Positions 248 through 54,833 of a DNA stretch of 55,460 bases are shown piece by piece. Both the position numbers and the translations under genes were made by a program. The stretch is from Lachnospiraceae bacterium (GTDB taxonomy: Bacteria > Bacillota > Clostridia > Lachnospirales > Lachnospiraceae). The stretch spans positions 1 through 55,460 of the forward strand of contig JAGBMJ010000123.1 in the NCBI GenBank assembly GCA_017634975.1, given 5' to 3'. Position 1 is the first letter of the stretch. The number at the start of each line of letters is the position of its first letter. A model generated the notes under the pieces. That model saw only the letters and a program-made list of their open reading frames with translations. It ran no database searches and had not been told where the DNA came from.

Positions 248-276
248 TTGACATGTGCAAACAATATATATACAAT
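248..276 (+). promoter_or_regulatory. Sigma-A-type promoter of the chemotaxis receptor gene
   Basis: TTGACA (248-253) and TACAAT (271-276) are separated by 17 bases, 37 bases before the ATG at 313. This looks like a vegetative promoter rather than the sigma-28 type often seen for motility genes. Confidence 0.7.
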
Positions 277-312
277 AATGCTAATAATATATATTATAGG
301 AGGTACGTTCGT

Positions 313-2343
313 ATGGAAGATTCCAAAAAAACGGGTGCGAAGATCAGTGTTCGTGCCAAACTGATCCTCGTAATGACTCTGATCGTTGTGATCCCCGTTG
401 TAACACTTACCCTGGTAAGTCTCCTGAATACCGTGAAACATGGCACCGAATCGGCAAACGAAGTCAACGCTGCACAGGCTGCCATCGTCCAGGAAGAGCT
501 GAACGGCATCTTCCGGGAAAACATCGAGGCACTGCGTACGTTCGCTGCCTCCCCCGGTGTAAGGAAATACCTGGAAGGCGATGTGACAAATGAGAACGTA
601 CGCTCTCCGCTGTACAAACAGCTGTTGGATATCGACCGGTACATGGATGACGGCAACTCCACCGCCCTTTCCGATGCCAGCGGCCAGCAGCTCATCCGTA
701 CGATCGGTAAACTGGTCAACATTGCTGACCGCGACTACTTTCTCAAGCCGATGTCCGGAGAAGAATACTATGTCTCTGACCTGATCATCTCCCGCTCCAC
801 GGGAACTGCCATCATCACGGTCTCCGTCCCGGTCTGGGATGAGGCCGGAACCTCCGTCCTCGGTATCGTCCAGCGAAATCTGGATTGCGGTGTCCTGCAT
901 GAAATGGTTGCCGCCGAGGTGACCCAGGACCGTCAGGAGATCGTTGTCGTAGACCGTACCGGAACCGTTATAGCACACTCCGTGCGCACCATCAACGTGG
1001 AGGATCCGGAGAAACAGGACCAGAACCCGTTCTATACCGATTCCCGCGGCGATCAGACCTCCGGCAACTATGTGGCACCTTTTATGGGCGACACCTGGAT
1101 CATCTCCTGGGAAAAAATCCCTCTGACCGGCTATATCGCAGCATCCTGCCGCGTTCAGGAAGTAGCGCTGGCCTCCGCATACCGGACCGCAGCTTCCCAG
1201 ATCGCGCTCGGAGTCCTCTTCATCGTCATCGCTGTCGTTTTGGCCGTGCTCTTCGCACGTTCCATCACACAGCCGCTCAAGTCGGTGAACGCCAGCCTTT
1301 CCGCCCTGTCCGATGGCTATTTCTGCCCGATCAACGTGACCGGAAAACGTTCGGATGAATTCGGCGAGATCATCGGCAGTACCAACGATGTGATCCATAA
1401 ACTGGAATCCATTGTCAACGGGATCAAGTCCAATGCCGTTTCCGTAAGTCAGGCCGCGGCCGAACTGGATGATATGTCCGTACAGATCTCGCAGAATGCC
1501 GACGGAGTATCCAATGCCATTCAGGAGATTGCGTGCGGAGCTTCCCAGCAGGCGGATGAGATCAACGGTGCGACCACAAGCATCGACAATATCGGTCATG
1601 CAGTATCCTCCGTACAGGAATCCACCACCGAGCTGGCCTCCATCGCCGAAAAGATGCAGCAGTCCTCCTCCGAATCCGCCCAGAGCCTGACGGATCTGAA
1701 GAAGAGCAGCGAATCCATGAACGGTGTGATCAACAGTATCTCCGAAAAGATCAGTGCTACCAGCGAAGCCGTGGGGCGCATCAACGGTATGGTGGAAGCC
1801 ATCACCAGCATCGCCTCCCAGACCAATCTGCTGGCACTCAACGCCTCCATCGAAGCTGCCCGTGCCGGAGATGCCGGCCGCGGATTTGCCGTTGTTGCAG
1901 AAGAGATCGGCAAGCTGGCTTCCGATTCCAGCAATTCCGCAGCGCAGATCCGTACGGAGATGGACATCCTGCTGAAGCAATCCAGGGAAGCCGTGGAAAT
2001 GGCCGGCGAAGTACAGGAAACCAACAGCAAACAGCAGACCGTGATCGACACTACCTTCCAGAGCGTAAATGCCATGATCAGCGATATCACACAGACGGTG
2101 AACGGTGTGAGTGCGATCTCCGCCAATGCACAGGACTGTGTTGCCGCCAAGGATATCGTGGTGGATGCCATGAGTTCATTGTCTTCGATCTCCGAGCAGA
2201 ACGCCGCCAGCAGTGAAGAGACCGGTGCCGCTATGGAGGAACTGGCAGCTACCGTGGCTACCCTTACGGGCAACGCCAATTCACTGAAATCCGTTTCCGA
2301 AGAACTGTCCGGAGAAATGAGTTTCTTTAAACTGGATAACTGA
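313..2343 (+). CDS. Methyl-accepting chemotaxis protein with double-Cache-like sensor
   Basis: This is a transmembrane chemoreceptor of 676 residues. A membrane helix at about residues 15-37 is followed by an extracellular sensor of about 250 residues that looks like a dCache domain. A second membrane helix lies at about 294-316, then a HAMP segment to about 365 and a long cytoplasmic signalling coiled coil. The hairpin tip is intact at about residues 496-530, with the hallmark [17 protein letters not shown] and GRGFAVVA. The ATG at 313 is chosen because GGAGG sits at 299-303; an upstream in-frame ATG at 253 lies inside the promoter. The receptor should pass ligand state to CheA/CheW and so to the flagella, whose rod genes lie at 35.5-37.8 kb. 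The ligand cannot be told. The gene ends at a perfect palindrome. Confidence 0.95.
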
Positions 2344-2368: not shown

Positions 2369-2432
2369 GCAGAACCAGGGGGACGGACCTAGTGGTACTA
2401 AAGTACCACTAGGTCCGTCCCCCTGGTTCTGC
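2369..2432. repeat. Perfect 31-bp-arm palindrome (copy 1), likely bidirectional terminator
   Basis: Arms 2369-2399 and 2402-2432 are perfect reverse complements around an AA loop. The arm core reads GGGGGACGGACCTAGTGGTA. A direct partial copy of the right end (CCCTGGTTCTGC) follows at 2433-2444 and leads into GTTTTATTT. It sits between the convergent chemoreceptor and DUF2298 genes. The same palindrome recurs at 54076-54135, so it is a dispersed element and not just a local terminator. Confidence 0.9.
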
Positions 2433-2447
2433 CCCTGGTTCTGCGTT

Positions 2448-4685
2448 TTATTTATTCAGTTTGATCAGATAAATCATATTTCCCGAGGTATCCGGTCCGT
2501 CACTGCAGTATACGGTCTCCCCTAAGCTAAACAGCTCTCCGAGCACTACACCGTTATCTTTGAATTTCTCATATTCATTGCTGCCGATATAGATGTAATC
2601 CACGTTGTACAGACGCAGCAGATCCTGCTTTCTCTGCAGATCTGTCCCCGTGTAGATTTCCCTGACATCATCCCCACGCGCATCCACCGGCTCTACATCG
2701 TTGTGCCACAGCCACTCATGGGTGTGCCAGCCCACGACCGTCGGGAATCCGGTCAGTACGGATACAAAGTTGTACAGTGAATAACTGTCCCCGTTCGCCT
2801 CAAGGATCACACTGCCATTGGGGATACTGGCGTTGATCCACTCCACGGCTGCCGCTTCTTCCGGCCGCTGCTCATAGATAAAGGCATCCGCGCGCAGACC
2901 CTTATGGCGTTCCCTGTCGTGTATATCCCCGAACGAATCCTCCAACGCCGTTTTGAAATAACCGCAGCACCAGAGCACCATAAGCCCTGCTATGATCCCC
3001 CATTTGCGCTGCGTGGTGCTCTGCGGTCTCGTGATCCATTTGCCGGTCACATATCCCATCATCAGTCCCAGCAGGATGAATGCCTGATAGCTCAGTTTAA
3101 ACATCGTATTAAAGCGCTTGAACCCGCTGGTATAGATATCCACTACATAGATCAGTTCCGGGATCAGGATCAGCCCCGCCCCGCACAATCCGATCAGCAG
3201 TACATACAGATCCGTACGATCCTGCACCCGCATCACCGGCCGGAAGCCCTTTGCCCTGCACCGTGCTGCCATGCTGACAAAATGCCCGATCAGAACCGCC
3301 ACCGGCAATCCCCACAGCACGATCAGCTGGTACCAGACGGTATGGTCTTCCGCTCTGGCAAAGCCGTTCGCCATAGCCTGAAAATGTATCGAGAACGGGA
3401 GTGCAGTCAATACGGCCAGGGTCAAAACAACGATCCCCTGCACCGCTGTGCGGGTCGCTACCAAAAGCGGTGCATCACCGCTGCGCAGATGGATCGCCAG
3501 CAGGATCGCGCCGGATACGACAAAATAGATCGGAAAATCCCAATAGTTTTCCATCATGCAGATCCCGATCAGAAAGCCGATCACGAGTACCGGTATATCC
3601 AGTAAGATTTTTTTCCAGTCCCACTTGCGTTTTTCATCGGCTTTGGCTGCCTGCAAGCAGGCATACAGGATCGCCAGGATCGTCAGTACCACGAAGATAT
3701 TGATCACATGCGCATGCAGATCGCCCAGCAGGAAGGAATACGCCGGAAACTCGTGTGCCGTTTTGTCATCGGTCTCCGGTTGATAACCGATATAGCGCGT
3801 GGAATCTGCAAACCAGTAACTCGGTTTTTCGCCTTCCGGATTGAGCATATCCCACAGCATCGGTACAAAGAAATTGAATACGATATAATGGCAGTTTGCC
3901 GCAAAGGTCACCGCCAGCATTCCCAGGATACCCGCAAAGGCAGCCGGCCACTGCGGATGTTCTTTCTCCGTATCCTTACCATGCCCATACATCCACTGAT
4001 ACACCAGTGAGAACGAAAGCGACGCACATAAGGCAAAGCACATGGACAACCCCAGATTGTATCCGTACACGACTTCATTTCCGGAGAGTTTCGTCAGAAA
4101 CGTCATCAGATACTGCCCGAAATAATAATAATTCAAATTTTCCCCGGCAAACCAGAAGTCCTGCACCGGAAAATACTCCGTACGGGCCATGGACGTCATA
4201 AAACCGTAGTCCATCATACGCTCCGTACCGTATGCAGACGGATTGAAACCTTTCAGATAGGCAAATACCGCAAAGCCTGTCAGAAACAGCAGCTCCCTGG
4301 CCAGCATCGCATCGACCGGCATTTCCCGAAACAATTTCCGCATACCGTCTTTTTTGCCGGCAAGATACGCGATCCCCCAGACAAGCACGATCGCGATCAG
4401 CGTTGACAGCAGCACACCACCTTTGGTAAACTTCAGGATCCGCAGCGATCCCAGCAAAAACATCACATACCCGCCGCCCAGAAATCCGAGTACTTTTCCG
4501 AAAAGATAACCGTGATCGGTAAAGCTGCCGAAAAGTTTTTTGCACAGAGGATAAAAACCGATCCCCAGCAGAAACAGTGTCAGCCACCATGTCAGGATCG
4601 GGGCGCTGTCACTTTCCATCGTACCGTATATGATTCCCAGAATCAGCAGACACCCGCTGCCGTACAGATATTTTCCAATACGCAT
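2448..4685 (-). CDS. DUF2298 (Chlor_Arch_YYY) large integral membrane protein
   Basis: This 745-residue protein has many hydrophobic helices and a soluble C-terminal domain of about 150 residues. The DUF2298 hallmark is clear around residues 150-200: a short loop (ERMMDYGFM, YFPVQDFWFAGE) followed by the tyrosine triplet in NLNYYYFGQYLMTF, which gave the Chlor_Arch_YYY family its name. A second motif, FLLGDLHAHV, follows. The architecture recalls GT-C lipid-linked-sugar transferases, with acidic loop motifs after the first helices and a C-terminal soluble domain, but no activity is proven for the family. It follows the 702-residue membrane protein by 7 bases with a GAGGAG upstream, so the two are co-transcribed at the end of the glycan locus. 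A role in transferring sugars at the membrane is inference. Confidence 0.8.
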   Translation of the reverse strand: MRIGKYLYGSGCLLILGIIYGTMESDSAPILTWWLTLFLLGIGFYPLCKKLFGSFTDHGYLFGKVLGFLGGGYVMFLLGSLRILKFTKGGVLLSTLIAIVLVWGIAYLAGKKDGMRKLFREMPVDAMLARELLFLTGFAVFAYLKGFNPSAYGTERMMDYGFMTSMARTEYFPVQDFWFAGENLNYYYFGQYLMTFLTKLSGNEVVYGYNLGLSMCFALCASLSFSLVYQWMYGHGKDTEKEHPQWPAAFAGILGMLAVTFAANCHYIVFNFFVPMLWDMLNPEGEKPSYWFADSTRYIGYQPETDDKTAHEFPAYSFLLGDLHAHVINIFVVLTILAILYACLQAAKADEKRKWDWKKILLDIPVLVIGFLIGICMMENYWDFPIYFVVSGAILLAIHLRSGDAPLLVATRTAVQGIVVLTLAVLTALPFSIHFQAMANGFARAEDHTVWYQLIVLWGLPVAVLIGHFVSMAARCRAKGFRPVMRVQDRTDLYVLLIGLCGAGLILIPELIYVVDIYTSGFKRFNTMFKLSYQAFILLGLMMGYVTGKWITRPQSTTQRKWGIIAGLMVLWCCGYFKTALEDSFGDIHDRERHKGLRADAFIYEQRPEEAAAVEWINASIPNGSVILEANGDSYSLYNFVSVLTGFPTVVGWHTHEWLWHNDVEPVDARGDDVREIYTGTDLQRKQDLLRLYNVDYIYIGSNEYEKFKDNGVVLGELFSLGETVYCSDGPDTSGNMIYLIKLNK

Positions 4686-7484: not shown

Positions 7485-7757
7485 AAAAACCGTGCGATGT
7501 CTGTCGAACCGAACCCATGCGCGCTTACTGCACAGCCAACTCCACCCAGGCGACCTCACGGCACATACGAATTCCCGCTTAGTGCTGCTGTGTTCCCACC
7601 CTGACACGGTTCACAGGCACGCATTGCGTAAGACCCGAATTTCAACATCGCTTATGCAGGGCTGACCACACAGGTAAAAAGCCCTCGAAACACCATCACC
7701 CTCCCTAAAGCGGATTTGGAGTGCAGGGCGCCGCTACTGCCCCGGCTGCACGGCTAA
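7485..7757 (-). ncRNA. ffs: Signal recognition particle RNA, large Firmicute type
   Basis: Read on the minus strand, the RNA begins near 7754 with GCCGTGC and ends with GCACGG followed by a T run (7485-7495); these ends pair. The 5' Alu-like domain is recognisable from the motifs GTAGCGG, CCCTGCACTC and AATCCGCTTTA. The S-domain tip reads TGAACCGTGTCAGG, then GTG-GGAA-CAC, then AGCAGCAC. That is the Ffh-binding symmetric loop capped by a GGAA tetraloop with a GUG/CAC closing stem. The length of about 270 fits the large Bacillus/Clostridia form. It guides Ffh and FtsY in co-translational membrane targeting. Its position inside a glycan locus is probably incidental, but it separates the ABC transporter from the membrane-protein trio. 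Confidence 0.92.
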
Positions 7758-42049: not shown

Positions 42050-42616
42050 ATGTATTGTGAACATTGCGGAAAACCGCTTTCGGATTATTCGGGTATTTGT
42101 AAATCCTGTAATAAGATTACGGATATATCGAGCGGAGATCCGGTATATGATGCTTACAGGATGGCACAGAAAAAGAAATCCCATGAAACCTTTATTTGCG
42201 TTTTTTTTGTGATTTTGGCGTTCTGTATATTAATTAGTGCCATTATCGCCCATGACGATCCGTACTGGCAGGAAAGCAAAGTAAGCGCAGATATGCAATT
42301 GGCCGACTCAATACATACCGCGATCCTGACCTCTATAATGGATCCCGAAATTCAAAGTATGAAGAAATTCCCCGGAGACTATGATGCGCTGACAGAGGAA
42401 TTCGACATCACACAGTATACCGGCGATGAAAACTGTATCCTGGCAGGTGCTGCCGAAATTCTTGATATGGAAGATCTGCATGATCTGAGCCGCCGGCTTA
42501 AATCACGCGGAGCGACCGGCCGCATCCTGGTAACGATCATTGGTCCTATGCAGGTGCAGGTCCGAGTCGAAGGAACCTACGTCAGCGAATACAGGGAAGA
42601 AATCATCATCCGCTAA
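42050..42616 (+). CDS. Zinc-ribbon membrane protein of unknown function
   Basis: This 188-residue protein has an N-terminal zinc ribbon (MYCEHCGKPLSDYSGICKSC, two CxxC pairs) and one membrane helix at about residues 50-66 (ICVFFVILAFCILISAIIAH). A C-terminal domain of about 115 residues resembles a small pilin- or sensor-like fold (QLADSIHTAILTSIMDPEI, GRILVTIIGPMQVQVRVEG). The ribbon would face the cytoplasm. AGGAG sits seven bases before the ATG. It is the only plus-strand gene between uvrA and uvrB. I do not recognise the family. Confidence 0.75.
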   Translation: MYCEHCGKPLSDYSGICKSCNKITDISSGDPVYDAYRMAQKKKSHETFICVFFVILAFCILISAIIAHDDPYWQESKVSADMQLADSIHTAILTSIMDPEIQSMKKFPGDYDALTEEFDITQYTGDENCILAGAAEILDMEDLHDLSRRLKSRGATGRILVTIIGPMQVQVRVEGTYVSEYREEIIIR

Positions 42617-51620: not shown

Positions 51621-51770
51621 TTACAACGGTTCAATGCTGTCACGATACTCCTCCGGACCGCTCATCACGGTCACTCCGGAAGTACGCTTCTCTCCTTCAG
51701 CACCCACAACATAGGCACTCACCTGCATCGGTTCCATCACATTGTTCTTTTCCGGATCATATTTTCCAGC
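51621..51770 (-). pseudogene. Truncated copy of part of the neighbouring lipoprotein gene
   Basis: Reading on the minus strand, GKYDPEKNNVMEPMQVSAYV, then VGAEGEKRTSGVTVMSG and PEEYRDSIEPL then stop matches the middle of the lipoprotein at 54161-54757 (DPEKYNVMEPMQASAYVVG). By eye about six bases differ over about 122 aligned bases (51637-51758 against 54488-54609). There is no start codon, signal peptide or the C-terminal half. It follows the stop of the carbohydrate-binding gene directly, in another frame, so it is probably not expressed as a protein. Confidence 0.85.
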
Positions 51771-51772
51771 AA

Positions 51773-53944
51773 TTACATACCTGCCGGTTGCAGCATCCCG
51801 TTTACTACATCAAATGTGGCTCCATCATACGCAACCGACCCGGTATAGTCTTCCGCAAGCCTGCCATTAACTACGTAGAACCATGCTCCACTGTACTGTA
51901 CCGGTCCCGTGTACTGCGTCTGCACCTGTCCGTTCGCCAGATAATACCAGTCCGTTCCATCCGGATCCATACAGAGCCCGTTCGCCTCCGTAACGATCCG
52001 TCCTGCTGCAACAAAAAAGAGTCCGTCATTATAAGATACAAAATCCGAAAGAGACGTATCCAGTCTTCCGTTTTTCACATAAAACCATTCACCACCATAC
52101 ATGACCAGCCCGGTATGATCACAGACCTGACCGTGTGATAAGAAGTACCAGTCATTTCCATCCGGATCCGGCTGCAGACCGCTCACATCTGCCACTCTCC
52201 CGTTAGCAACCAGAAAGGATGCACCGCCATAGGGTACAAAACCGTATTTCTGTGTATCTATCGTTCCGTCATATCCATAATAATACCAAATACCATCCTC
52301 AGCCAGTTTCAGAGTATTCCTTACGATATCGATGTATTTCTCCGGCTGCTCTTCCGGATATTTCTCTTCTCTCCAATCTCCTTCCGAAGTTCCACCGGTG
52401 GTCCCGCTGCCGTTTGCTGTCGATGTTGCCACACTGCTGCCATTCAGATACAGCGTATAACTATCTCCCTCGGACAGTTCCGGTGAGGCAAACAGTACAT
52501 AATTTGCACTTTTCACCCCTTCTCCGGTAAAAAGTGTATTCCCGGATGCATCTTTGATCTCGATCGCAGTTCCTTTACTGATCGAGATGCTGCCGTTATC
52601 GGAAGTATTCATCCCACGTGGATTTCCCATGCCACTCATTCCGCCCGGTCCTGCGTTTCCTCCGCCAAATACAACATATTCTCCTTCTGATGGATTTTCT
52701 GCCATTCCGCTGTTACCGACAGCCAAAGCAGTAACACCATTCACAGAAAAGTCCGCGGGACGTTCATAATCCAATGGAGCATTATCCCCGCTCGAAGATC
52801 CATAAACCTCTGCCACACCACCGGTCAGGCTCAGGCTTCCGTTGGAATCCAGTCCGTCTCCGTCTGCATTTACATATAGATTTCCACCCGTTACATTGAT
52901 CGCAAAACTATAGTTACTCAGCTCACTGTTCGCCGCATTCACTCCGTCATCCGTACTCCTTACCGTGATATCTCCGGAATAGATATTTACCGTTGCACCT
53001 TCCAGTCCCTCACAGGATTCCGTGACATTTATCACAGGTCCATCACTGCTGTCTTGACTCCCGATTGTCAGTACCGCTTCCGAATGCACACCGTCATCCC
53101 CTGCTTTGATCGTACATTCTCCTCCGCGGATCGTCAGATCTCCCGTTGCCTGAATGGCATCCTCCGCACTGTCGATCACCAGGGTTCCTCCGTTCACGGT
53201 GATCGTACCGGCAGAGGCGGTATCACCTTCATCCGGCGAAGATTTCAGACCGTCTCCCTCTGCAGTCAGATTCAGATTGCCTCCGACTACGGTCACTGAA
53301 CCATCACAGGCCAATGCATTATTGGCTGCTTTGGCATATAGTGTAAAGCTGTCCTCCGAAGATTCCCCTACAATAATGCTGGCTTCCGCTCCGCCTTTGA
53401 TTCCATTCTTACAGTCACTTCCATCTGCATTCAGTATTCCGTCACCGCTGATCAACAGCGTTGAGCCGCTTTTTACTTTGATCGCAGCCCCTTCAAAAGC
53501 ATCCGCGGTTTCCGCATCCTCCGAGTTTTCATCTGCCGGATCTTCCAGATCGGTCAACGTATTGCTGCCGTCGATCACAAGCTTCACCTCTGCGGATTTT
53601 GCGATCACAAGAGGTGCTGTTTCGGAAGCGGTAAGATCCAGATCTGACAGGATCAGTATTACACCTTCCGTTCCCTTCTTCACCTTTATGCTTCCTTCGG
53701 AACATTTTCCCGTGATCCGGTAGGTTCCTGCGGCACTGATCGTCAGATCCGTCCCATCGATCTTATAGCCGTCTTCACTACCTTCCGCTTCGATCCCATC
53801 TTCCGAAAAAGTAAAACTGCTGTCATAGGTTCCTTCATACGCCTGGGCTGTAATTGCCGGTGTAAAAAACGATGCTGTCAGTGCACTCACACATGCCAAT
53901 CCACCAAGCCGCCTTCTGAAACCGTTAAAATCGTGATTCTTCAT
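51773..53944 (-). CDS. Secreted Cthe_2159-like carbohydrate-binding protein with wall-binding-like repeats
   Basis: This 723-residue protein starts with a signal peptide (GGLACVSALTASFFTPAITAQA). From about 40 to 460 it has the parallel-beta-helix repeats of the Cthe_2159/DUF4353 family: DGTDLTISAAGTYRITGKCS, LLISGDGILNADGSDCKNGI and LTAEGDGLKSSPDEGD with repeated DGV and DGL turns, and the glycine-methionine-rich GGGNAGPGGMSGMGNPRG end. The C-terminal 180 residues hold about eight repeats of the pattern WYYLANGQV, WFYVVNGRLAEDYTG, as in choline- or wall-binding modules. It may bind a polysaccharide such as pectin or cellulose at the cell surface. AGGAGGG precedes the ATG. Confidence 0.85.
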   Translation of the reverse strand: MKNHDFNGFRRRLGGLACVSALTASFFTPAITAQAYEGTYDSSFTFSEDGIEAEGSEDGYKIDGTDLTISAAGTYRITGKCSEGSIKVKKGTEGVILILSDLDLTASETAPLVIAKSAEVKLVIDGSNTLTDLEDPADENSEDAETADAFEGAAIKVKSGSTLLISGDGILNADGSDCKNGIKGGAEASIIVGESSEDSFTLYAKAANNALACDGSVTVVGGNLNLTAEGDGLKSSPDEGDTASAGTITVNGGTLVIDSAEDAIQATGDLTIRGGECTIKAGDDGVHSEAVLTIGSQDSSDGPVINVTESCEGLEGATVNIYSGDITVRSTDDGVNAANSELSNYSFAINVTGGNLYVNADGDGLDSNGSLSLTGGVAEVYGSSSGDNAPLDYERPADFSVNGVTALAVGNSGMAENPSEGEYVVFGGGNAGPGGMSGMGNPRGMNTSDNGSISISKGTAIEIKDASGNTLFTGEGVKSANYVLFASPELSEGDSYTLYLNGSSVATSTANGSGTTGGTSEGDWREEKYPEEQPEKYIDIVRNTLKLAEDGIWYYYGYDGTIDTQKYGFVPYGGASFLVANGRVADVSGLQPDPDGNDWYFLSHGQVCDHTGLVMYGGEWFYVKNGRLDTSLSDFVSYNDGLFFVAAGRIVTEANGLCMDPDGTDWYYLANGQVQTQYTGPVQYSGAWFYVVNGRLAEDYTGSVAYDGATFDVVNGMLQPAGM

Positions 53945-54075
53945 GATTTACCCTCCTGTATTCGCCGTTCATCCTTTTTGTTACAGGGAATCCTGCTTAT
54001 TCCCTATTGCAAAAACAGGATAACATCGAAAGATTAAACGAACATTAAAAAAACAGGAGAAAACCAAGGGGACGG

Positions 54076-54135
54076 AAAACCAGGGGGACGGACCTAGTGG
54101 TACTTCAGTACCACTAGGTCCGTCCCCCTGGTTTT
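54076..54135. repeat. Perfect 29-bp-arm palindrome (copy 2), likely terminator
   Basis: Arms 54076-54104 and 54107-54135 are perfect reverse complements around a TC loop. The arm core GGGGGACGGACCTAGTGGTA is identical to copy 1 at 2369-2432. A partial tandem start (CCAAGGGGACGG) precedes it at 54064-54075. It lies between the lipoprotein and the carbohydrate-binding gene, 25 bases from the former's stop. Confidence 0.9.
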
Positions 54136-54160
54136 ATGCTGCCCCGCTCAACCGGTATGT

Positions 54161-54757
54161 TTATTGAAACGGAGTAAGTTCGTATTTTCCTGCAGTGATG
54201 ATCCCGCCGCTGCCAACGATCTCAAAGGAATTGTTCTCCGAAGAATACTTCATCGCTTCCGTTTCCTTCGTCCCACCAAAGCTGGATTCTCTGATCAGCG
54301 TTCCGTTATCGCAAAGGTACATATAATCACCGTCGCCGCTGCTCATGATATGCGTCGCCCCAAAGTCGCTGTTCCATACGCACAGATCCAGAAACTGGGT
54401 CTGCGGAGCATCGTTGATCAGTCCGACCAGCAGTTCCTCTGCGCCGTCGCCATCCAGATCCTTCAGCAGGTATCCGAACTGATTGCTGCTGTCACGATAC
54501 TCCTCCGAACCGCTCATCACGGTCACTCCGGAAGTACGCTTCTCTCCGTCAGCACCGACAACATAGGCACTCGCCTGCATCGGCTCCATCACATTGTACT
54601 TTTCCGGATCCGCCTTATCCCATCCGTTTCTGACTGCGGTTCCAAAGTAAGCGATCGAGTCATTATACCAGTCCTTCGGTATTTTATTCTCATTTCCGCA
54701 GCCTGCGCATGCTGCCGCTGTCAATAACGCAGAAAGGACGATTACTGTTTTTTTCAT
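54161..54757 (-). CDS. Putative lipoprotein with calcium-like DxDGDG motif
   Basis: This 198-residue protein begins MKKTVIVLSALLTAAACAGC; a lipobox cysteine at about residue 16 or 19 makes it a lipoprotein. Most of the chain has no match I can name. LLKDLDGDGAEELLVGLIND carries a DLDGDGxxEL pattern typical of calcium-binding FG-GAP/EF-like sequences, and DAPQTQFLDLCVWNSDFG follows. GGGGGAAATGAG precedes the ATG at 54757. A broken copy of residues about 40-85 lies at 51621-51770. Confidence 0.75.
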   Translation of the reverse strand: MKKTVIVLSALLTAAACAGCGNENKIPKDWYNDSIAYFGTAVRNGWDKADPEKYNVMEPMQASAYVVGADGEKRTSGVTVMSGSEEYRDSSNQFGYLLKDLDGDGAEELLVGLINDAPQTQFLDLCVWNSDFGATHIMSSGDGDYMYLCDNGTLIRESSFGGTKETEAMKYSSENNSFEIVGSGGIITAGKYELTPFQ

Positions 54758-54803
54758 CTCATTTCCCCCACTTATTATAATATTTGTTATCAGCATTGAG
54801 AAC

Positions 54804-54833
54804 ATTATATATCCGCAGGAATCGTCTTTTCAA
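54804..54833 (-). promoter_or_regulatory. Sigma-A-type promoter of the lipoprotein gene
   Basis: On the minus strand TTGAAA (54828-54833) and TATAAT (54804-54809) are 18 bases apart, about 45 bases before the ATG at 54757. Confidence 0.65.

Follow-up and report, generated by a model that had tools for sequence, protein, structure and literature searches.

The best-described systems of repetitive extragenic palindromes (REPs) and REP-associated tyrosine transposases (RAYTs) carry a GTAG tag and are largely found in Proteobacteria. In REPINs, two inverted REPs form one hairpin unit; the parts of PMC3116915 consulted describe compensatory changes, singlets as well as doublets, an association with RAYTs and a random distribution of the doublets in extragenic space, and propose that a RAYT disperses single-stranded copies in trans. 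The TnpA_REP of E. coli cleaves single-stranded REPs in vitro, as stated in the sections consulted of PMC8266576. Another type is represented by the TIRYT genes, which are flanked by inverted repeats; according to passages of PMC3733652, some of these repeats share GGGGWSAS and some are dispersed as singles and dimers. Passages of PMC6006769 place most TIRYT genes in TnpA_REP subclass 2.1, which has a C-terminal helix-turn-helix (HTH), is the second largest branch and had no REP-like sequences detected near its genes. Here we describe a repeat family of a Lachnospiraceae bacterium, two members of which are perfect palindromes in contig JAGBMJ010000123.1 (C81; assembly GCA_017634975.1). This contig of 55,460 nt was analysed as a whole and is called the window. 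The two palindromes probably represent a dispersed element of REPIN-like type that is non-autonomous, has been spread by a RAYT and occupies, and now acts at, terminator positions.

In the open-access literature searched, we found no description of this repeat family and no paper that combines RAYTs, REPINs and Firmicutes. The strings of the core sequence retrieved no repeat paper from that literature, as judged by titles and abstract starts, and the terms "Firmicutes" and "Clostridi" have no mention in the main text of PMC3733652. The two palindromes and their parts are as follows.

2369..2432: doublet at site 1, flavour A, REPIN-like; perfect palindrome with 31-bp arms and loop AA
2374..2396, + strand: left REP unit of site 1, ACCAGGGGGACGGACCTAGTGGT, identified with the unit pattern
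2405..2427, - strand: right REP unit of site 1, inverted
2433..2444: 12-bp exact tandem copy of the right end of site 1 (copy of 2421-2432), CCCTGGTTCTGC
54076..54135: doublet at site 2, flavour A, REPIN-like; perfect palindrome with 29-bp arms and loop TC
54079..54101, + strand: left REP unit of site 2, identified with the unit pattern
54110..54132, - strand: right REP unit of site 2, inverted
54060..54075, + strand: partial tandem REP piece, AAAACCAAGGGGACGG, 15/16 identical to 54076-54091

The original prediction, made from the letters of the window, had described both palindromes with these arms and loops. The arm common to both, AACCAGGGGGACGGACCTAGTGGTACT, measured 27 nt, and a direct alignment gave a start-to-start distance of 51,705. 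The claim that such arms cannot be due to chance was confirmed by calculation, as a random sequence of 55,460 bases with the window's composition is expected to contain 1.3e-12 perfect arms of at least 29 bp with loops of 0-10. The predicted RNA folds have energies of -66.2 kcal/mol (z -13.9) at site 1 and -57.5 kcal/mol (z -12.3) at site 2. The "broken tandem pieces" reported beside the palindromes are real, i.e. the 12-bp and 16-bp repeats listed above.

The source genome is a metagenome-assembled genome (MAG) of 4.36 Mb in 147 contigs, with a completeness of 99.1%. Each palindrome arm represents one unit, ACCAnGGGGACGGACCTnnTGGT, which occurs 77 times in this genome. The shorter unit pattern GGGGACGGACCTnnTGG yielded 82 units and none in a reversed control. 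By a hand count from the unit list, 44 of the 82 units are arranged as 22 inverted pairs, 19 distinct ones of which were inspected, and thus one trait of REPINs, an inverted two-unit hairpin in many copies, is present. The full unit was not found in any of the 119 other genomes of the family (taken as Lachnospiraceae, drawn about one per genus), and the shorter pattern detected units in 12 of the 35 genomes of the genus. The dispersed hairpin family that had been proposed thus exists, with many more copies than the two in the window and with further copies in relatives.

Three flavours of the unit were recognised in the 0.84 Mb of the genome that was examined. They have the core GGGGACGG in common and differ in the surrounding stems, which are ACCA...ACCTnnTGGT in flavour A (that of the window), GAGGAC...TCCTnnnGTCCTC in flavour B, and GAGCCA...TTCTnnTGGCT(C) in flavour C. 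Across the flavours and across the class (taken as Clostridia), the core is GGGGAC[A/G]G. Doublets of flavour C were observed on contigs C6, C11, C28, C120 and C123; many of them have an AAGATC-rich central spacer and several lie inside called genes, unlike flavour A.

The standard A doublet consists of two head-to-head units around an 8-bp spacer, ACTnnAGT. A set of 21 doublets from five genomes, 15 of them distinct, was analysed for the pairing of the two arms; three doublets of other length (L050, L070 and L158) were omitted. Arm-to-arm pairing was found for 99.3% of the cells, and 25 cells were changed on both arms, compared with 6.3 ± 2.2 after shuffling, a value reached by 0 of 500 shuffles. 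Compensatory change between the arms, a further REPIN trait, is therefore present, and the two results together show that it is the long hairpin that A doublets maintain. Within single units, covariation of the base before GGGG with the last n was unsupported (16 of 27 Watson-Crick pairs versus 15.1 expected). A few copies, L043, L040 and L037, have conspicuously nested AACCAnGGGG pieces next to the doublets, and no general pattern emerged from 24 doublets: the local score for the symmetry of own pairs was 6.81 versus 6.31, which was reached by 913 of 10,000 permutations, and the respective ungapped values were 84 of 5000 with all bases and 812 and 1497 of 5000 after skipping 4 or 8. Leaving aside the dinucleotide at the centre and the bases at the outer ends, the arms are identical in 8 of the 19 distinct doublets of this genome, including the two of the window, and the same arms are present in the relatives G134 and G129, which suggests a recent spread.

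The positions of the doublets were determined with our own simple codon-usage gene caller. In agreement with the original prediction, both window palindromes are at gene 3′ ends, i.e. site 1 lies between convergent gene ends at 2343 and 2448, and the palindrome of site 2 follows the end of gene 54161-54805 (- strand) at a distance of 25 bp and precedes a gene start at 53944 by 131 bp. Throughout the genome, a stop codon is found 11-46 bp from all placed doublets (19 of 19 distinct ones; C102 and C11:105858, which have the same flanks, were counted once, and C86 and C90, with longer spacers, were left out). Eleven of the 19 are in convergent gaps and eight in same-direction gaps, where the end of the upstream gene is nearer to them than the start of the following one; divergent gaps contain none. 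Convergent gaps make up 8% of the intergenic bases and 11% of the gaps in the sample, and the convergent bias has P values of 4e-8 by bases and 9e-7 by gaps. For singlets, 12 of the 38 unpaired units could be placed, with loci of more than 5 kb and elements less than 600 bp from a locus end omitted: seven are in same-direction gaps, one in a divergent gap, one inside a gene and three at locus edges. The concentration of doublets at gene 3′ ends is a pattern in which targeting and selection of survivors are not separated.

Could the doublets be host-made, bidirectional intrinsic terminators, i.e. a favoured terminator sequence that was copied within the genome through duplication or gene conversion and retained under selection, with no transposase involved? 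The placement of 19 of 19 doublets at 3′ ends and the convergent bias would fit, as would the T runs: TTTT directly follows TGG at 27 of 37 doublet ends (37 of 38 ends were caught) and TGGT in 15 of 27 singlets. We nevertheless consider this quite unlikely. Flavours B and C have the same core and are looser in position, with some units upstream of or within called genes; the same core flanks RAYT genes throughout the class, with covarying stems (see below); the methyl-accepting chemotaxis protein (MCP) gene of site 1 is followed by unrelated terminator sequences in relatives; and the U tracts are short, and the doublets are not picked out by a strict terminator scan.

Inverted pairs at gene ends are also the typical layout of the DNA uptake signals of Neisseria and Pasteurellaceae, for which 82 copies would be a low number. 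That the units are such a short signal, inverted pairs of which double as terminators, is barely credible, not only in view of this low number: related units flank RAYT genes, and a single loop core is surrounded by stems that vary from locus to locus.

The likeness to REP/RAYT-type repeats was borne out by the occurrence of the core motif next to RAYT-like genes throughout the class. RAYT matches were found in 27 of 120 genomes of the family and in 93 of 291 genomes of the class. For the analysis of the flanks, 59 loci were fetched, 46 of which gave an open reading frame (ORF) under the motif filter, and 13 were omitted. At 34 of the 46 RAYT ORFs, GGGGAC[A/G]G lies no more than 300 bp away on one or both sides, and at 16 it is present on both, compared with a background of 28 of 354 single 300-bp windows. 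The orientation of the upstream units is always "+" in the class-wide loci and that of the downstream units mostly "-", whereas the family loci are mixed. Among all 59 loci, GGGGACGG is near 33 and GGGGACAG near 9; GGGGACRG occurs at 41 (outer windows 16/92) and GGGGWSAS at 14 (outer windows 11/92).

The stems around the core pair within a locus, with a mean of 4.58 bp versus 2.64 bp for mixed halves (0 of 2000 permutations), and stems of at least 5 bp are present at 19 of 36 loci versus 6.7% of the mixed halves. These values refer to one element per locus at 36 of the 59 loci, under a simple stem rule and with relatedness not corrected; some RAYT loci have no stem under this rule. Genomes rich in GGGGACGGNNCT (11 of 120, with a threshold chosen in this analysis) had RAYT matches in 9 of 11 cases versus 18 of 109 for the others (P 1.8e-5). 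Four of the five named loci with related RAYTs belong to Lachnospiraceae MAGs, including one from goat omasum, and the fifth, which is more distant, is assigned to "Bacillota". Two variants of the arrangement were also observed. RAYT genes at L134/L179 (G004) and L129 (G080) are next to GGGGACGGGGT units, a further flavour with another 3′ half of the loop, and at L136 (G010) a short array of units spaced by 30 bp, GGAACCGGGGACGGAGNT, is found at 346-466 and 1108-1242 near a RAYT gene.

Taken from the sequences compared, the units thus appear to belong to a superfamily whose defining feature is the GGGGAC[A/G]G core, carried in the loop of a stem that is short and varies, and which also includes the units flanking TIRYT-like RAYT genes. 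From this association we infer that the family was mobilised by a RAYT. Inverted repeats and dispersed copies would equally be expected of a miniature inverted-repeat transposable element, here a remnant of a conventional DDE insertion sequence. This explanation is highly improbable, because the motif tracks Y1_Tnp genes and because the flanks, inspected by eye and not systematically, have no obvious target-site duplication; the search for transposases was confined to Y1_Tnp.

The genome itself has four Y1_Tnp matches at three loci. Contig C28 carries an intact RAYT-like gene encoding 246 aa from the ATG, with an HIH motif and a tyrosine in LRYIIQNP that we take to be the catalytic one. The gene on C15 is RAYT-like and shortened, and that on C17 is a broken IS200-like gene. 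The Y1 transposase domain is present in the C28 protein (PF01797, 55.4 bits, cut-off 23), and the sole NCBIfam match is REP_Tyr_transpos, with 70.4 bits below the cut-off of 80. The C-terminus matches HTH_38, HTH_SB, HTH_23 and others with E values of 0.0002-0.12, all under the curated cut-offs, and helices are predicted at 189-243, the last blocks having pLDDT values of 70-92 within an otherwise poor model. Close orthologues of this RAYT occur in G129, G130, G140 and G146 with flavour B adjoining at least upstream. A B-flanked RAYT was recognised in 5 of the 35 genus genomes, and all five belong to the 12 that are A-positive (P 0.0024, without correction for relatedness). The orthologue in G146 (L201, 2001-2732; L191) has LRNIIQNP in place of the LRYIIQNP found elsewhere, and the presumed catalytic tyrosine is thus replaced.

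Several results weigh against a RAYT-spread element acting at terminator positions. The source genome is a MAG with 7.5% contamination. The C28 RAYT, the only intact one found in the genome, is flanked by flavour B and not by flavour A on both sides, the nearest units on either side have the same orientation and are not inverted, and its structure model is poor (mean pLDDT 49.5). A RAYT flanked by flavour A was seen nowhere among the RAYT loci examined, and a Y1_Tnp gene was not detected in the A-positive genomes G132, G133, G134 and G141. In the arm analysis, the number of pairs varying on both sides was five, which was reached by 36 of 500 shuffles. The doublet tails have mostly 4 T, and site 1 starts with TTCTGC and has no TTTT. 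In a strict terminator scan, which required 6 T in 8 behind the stem and covered convergent gaps of 20-400 bp, two of seven gaps with a doublet passed on some strand, with both hits outside the doublet, compared with 19 of 36 gaps without a doublet.

A nearby Y1-type transposase, which had been suggested as a thing to look for, was not found on the window's contig, which the window covers completely; the intact gene on C28 has flavour B in its flanks, i.e. the same core with a different stem. The REPIN trait of a cognate RAYT flanked by the same REP is therefore lacking, and the family is filed as REPIN-like and not as a proven REPIN. The A-flanked RAYT may be missing because the gene set of the MAG could be incomplete. 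It is also conceivable, yet unlikely, that flavour A is a relic, i.e. that it was spread by a RAYT that is now lost and that the copies persist solely as 3′-end hairpins or by conversion of the arms. This explanation overlaps with the preferred one. It would account for the missing A-flanked RAYT and for the seven A-positive genomes without a recognised B-flanked RAYT, one of which (G131) has a RAYT fragment and four of which are the genomes without a detected Y1_Tnp gene mentioned above. In contrast, the identical arms in 8 of 19 doublets and in G134 and G129 suggest that the spread was recent.

For a RAYT-spread element, the following course of events seems most likely. A RAYT would act in trans to spread single-stranded copies of the doublet, and insertions, or surviving insertions, would concentrate at gene 3′ ends, in or beside intrinsic terminators. 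The doublet hairpin with its flanking A/T runs would then stop or trim transcripts from both sides, as a short bidirectional terminator or 3′-end hairpin, and as a consequence the old terminator would be free to decay. A GC-rich hairpin behind the stop codon, a trait of intrinsic terminators, is present at 19 of 19 placed doublets. The putative terminator role that had been ascribed to the palindromes is supported by position, structure and two comparisons with the relative G132, from which we infer termination by the doublets; in the strict scan, as described, the doublets were not picked out. The genes next to the two sites and the traces of terminators are the following.

253..2343, + strand: MCP gene (dCache_1, MCPsignal), neighbour of site 1
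2448..4685, - strand: DUF2298 membrane protein gene, convergent with the MCP gene, neighbour of site 1
51773..53944, - strand: gene for a Cthe_2159-type carbohydrate-binding protein with a choline-binding repeat, neighbour of site 2
54161..54805, - strand: gene without a Pfam match, with its 3′ end toward the site-2 palindrome
2446..2456, + strand: T-rich tract that matches the terminator T tract of G132 in a longer alignment
54139..54157, - strand: probable remnant of a G132-type intrinsic terminator (4 of 5000 shuffles align equally well)

In G132, the best-matching relative, the MCP and DUF2298 genes are in the same order, with 81% identity at these loci. The distance between the flank matches at site 1 is 34 bp, compared with 102 bp in the window, and the element is absent; this empty site, in another species, is the only one observed. 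The gap contains a plain intrinsic terminator, GGATGCGC-CGCG-GCGCATCC-T7. The match of 2446-2456 to its T tract, taken alone as a short sequence, is not above shuffles (903/5000). Inspection of the 3′ end of the MCP gene in nine relatives revealed an ordinary hairpin in five, with a perfect stem of terminator type in three of these (78-81% identity); in the remaining four, the gene seems to be followed immediately by another one.

At site 2, the orthologue of gene 54161-54805 in G132 is followed by a strong terminator, and the fetched locus has no GGGGACRG. In the window, an imperfect copy of part of this terminator is found in the stretch that separates the palindrome from the stop codon, and the former terminator thus seems to have decayed. 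The relative G124 has no clear terminator at this site. As 822 bp separate the homologous flanks of site 2 in G132, part of which resembles 42277-42534 of the window, only the 3′ end of gene 54161-54805 was compared. Judging from these alignments, the element stands at both window sites where G132 has a terminator, and these are just two sites.

The G132 comparison at the two sites suggests a takeover of termination. On a larger scale, a class-wide RAYT/REPIN system may exist with a GGGGACRG loop core and fast-changing stems, the doublets of which insert in or next to intrinsic terminators, then replace them and so take over host termination sites; this we put forward tentatively and with considerable doubt. 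If doublets do replace terminators, the family would be an experimentally accessible example of how a mobile repeat can assume a basic function of its host.

Some further observations concern the window and its relatives. The only Rfam match of the window at the gathering threshold is a signal recognition particle RNA, the bacterial large form, at 7490-7753 (- strand; RF01854, 164.5 bits). A 124-bp direct repeat (51635-51758 and 54487-54610, 95% identical) is next to the site-2 palindrome and perhaps represents paralogous gene parts. Comparison with phage, plasmid and viral contigs gave zero matches, and so did a comparison by sequence with the PDB. Locus L160 of G134 and contig C57 of the source genome (L081) are 98.8% identical over 1.5 kb, while the two genomes are about 77-78% alike at the site-1 genes, which may reflect a recent transfer or MAG contamination.

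How does the family compare with known systems? The GTAG REPs, which belong to groups 2 and 3 of TnpA_REP, are likewise short dispersed palindromes with a Y1 transposase, and in several REP-rich genomes, as far as covered by the source passages, they too are mostly found in same-direction and convergent gaps. An assignment to them was rejected, because there is no conserved unpaired 5′ GT[A/G]G by the stem and the conserved part is in the loop and not before the stem. The CGTC REPs share CGTC, which is contained in the complement of the core, and HH-type dimers. They are described, in the portions of the literature consulted, as having 8-9 bp stems, 4-5 nt loops, a terminal tag and no transposase, and this assignment was also rejected, as the core is inside the loop here and the units flank RAYT genes. 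Like intrinsic terminators, the doublets form GC-rich hairpins just behind stop codons, with a 4-T tail at most ends; unlike these, they have a far longer stem and a short U tract and are not picked out by the strict scan. REPINs are matched by the inverted pairs of flavour A that form a hairpin, by the compensatory changes, by the presence of singlets plus doublets and by the association with RAYTs, whereas the packing of the A doublets beside gene ends and the lack of an A-flanked RAYT are different.

Concerning the kind of REP/RAYT system, the palindromes resemble REP/RAYT-type repeats as originally predicted, and they are closer to the TIRYT terminal repeats with GGGGWSAS than to GTAG REPs. 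The closest known system is that of the TIRYT/TIRtron repeats (TnpA_REP subclass 2.1), and from its sequence features the family looks like a member of that branch. Both have a Y1 HUH transposase gene, with a C-terminal part that may be HTH-like in the present family too, and GGGG-type flanking repeats, some of which, in the passages available for TIRYT/TIRtron, are also dispersed as singles, dimers and clusters. The core of the genome analysed here, GGGGACGG, is off the published GGGGWSAS by one base. Unlike subclass 2.1 as characterised in the consulted part of PMC6006769, the core is located in a stem-loop with covarying stems beside RAYT-like genes. Beside RAYT genes that resemble subclass 2.1, the present repeats form stem-loops in which the loop core is constant and the stems covary, and one flavour, unlike the TIRYT repeats, has multiplied as perfect doublets at gene 3′ ends.
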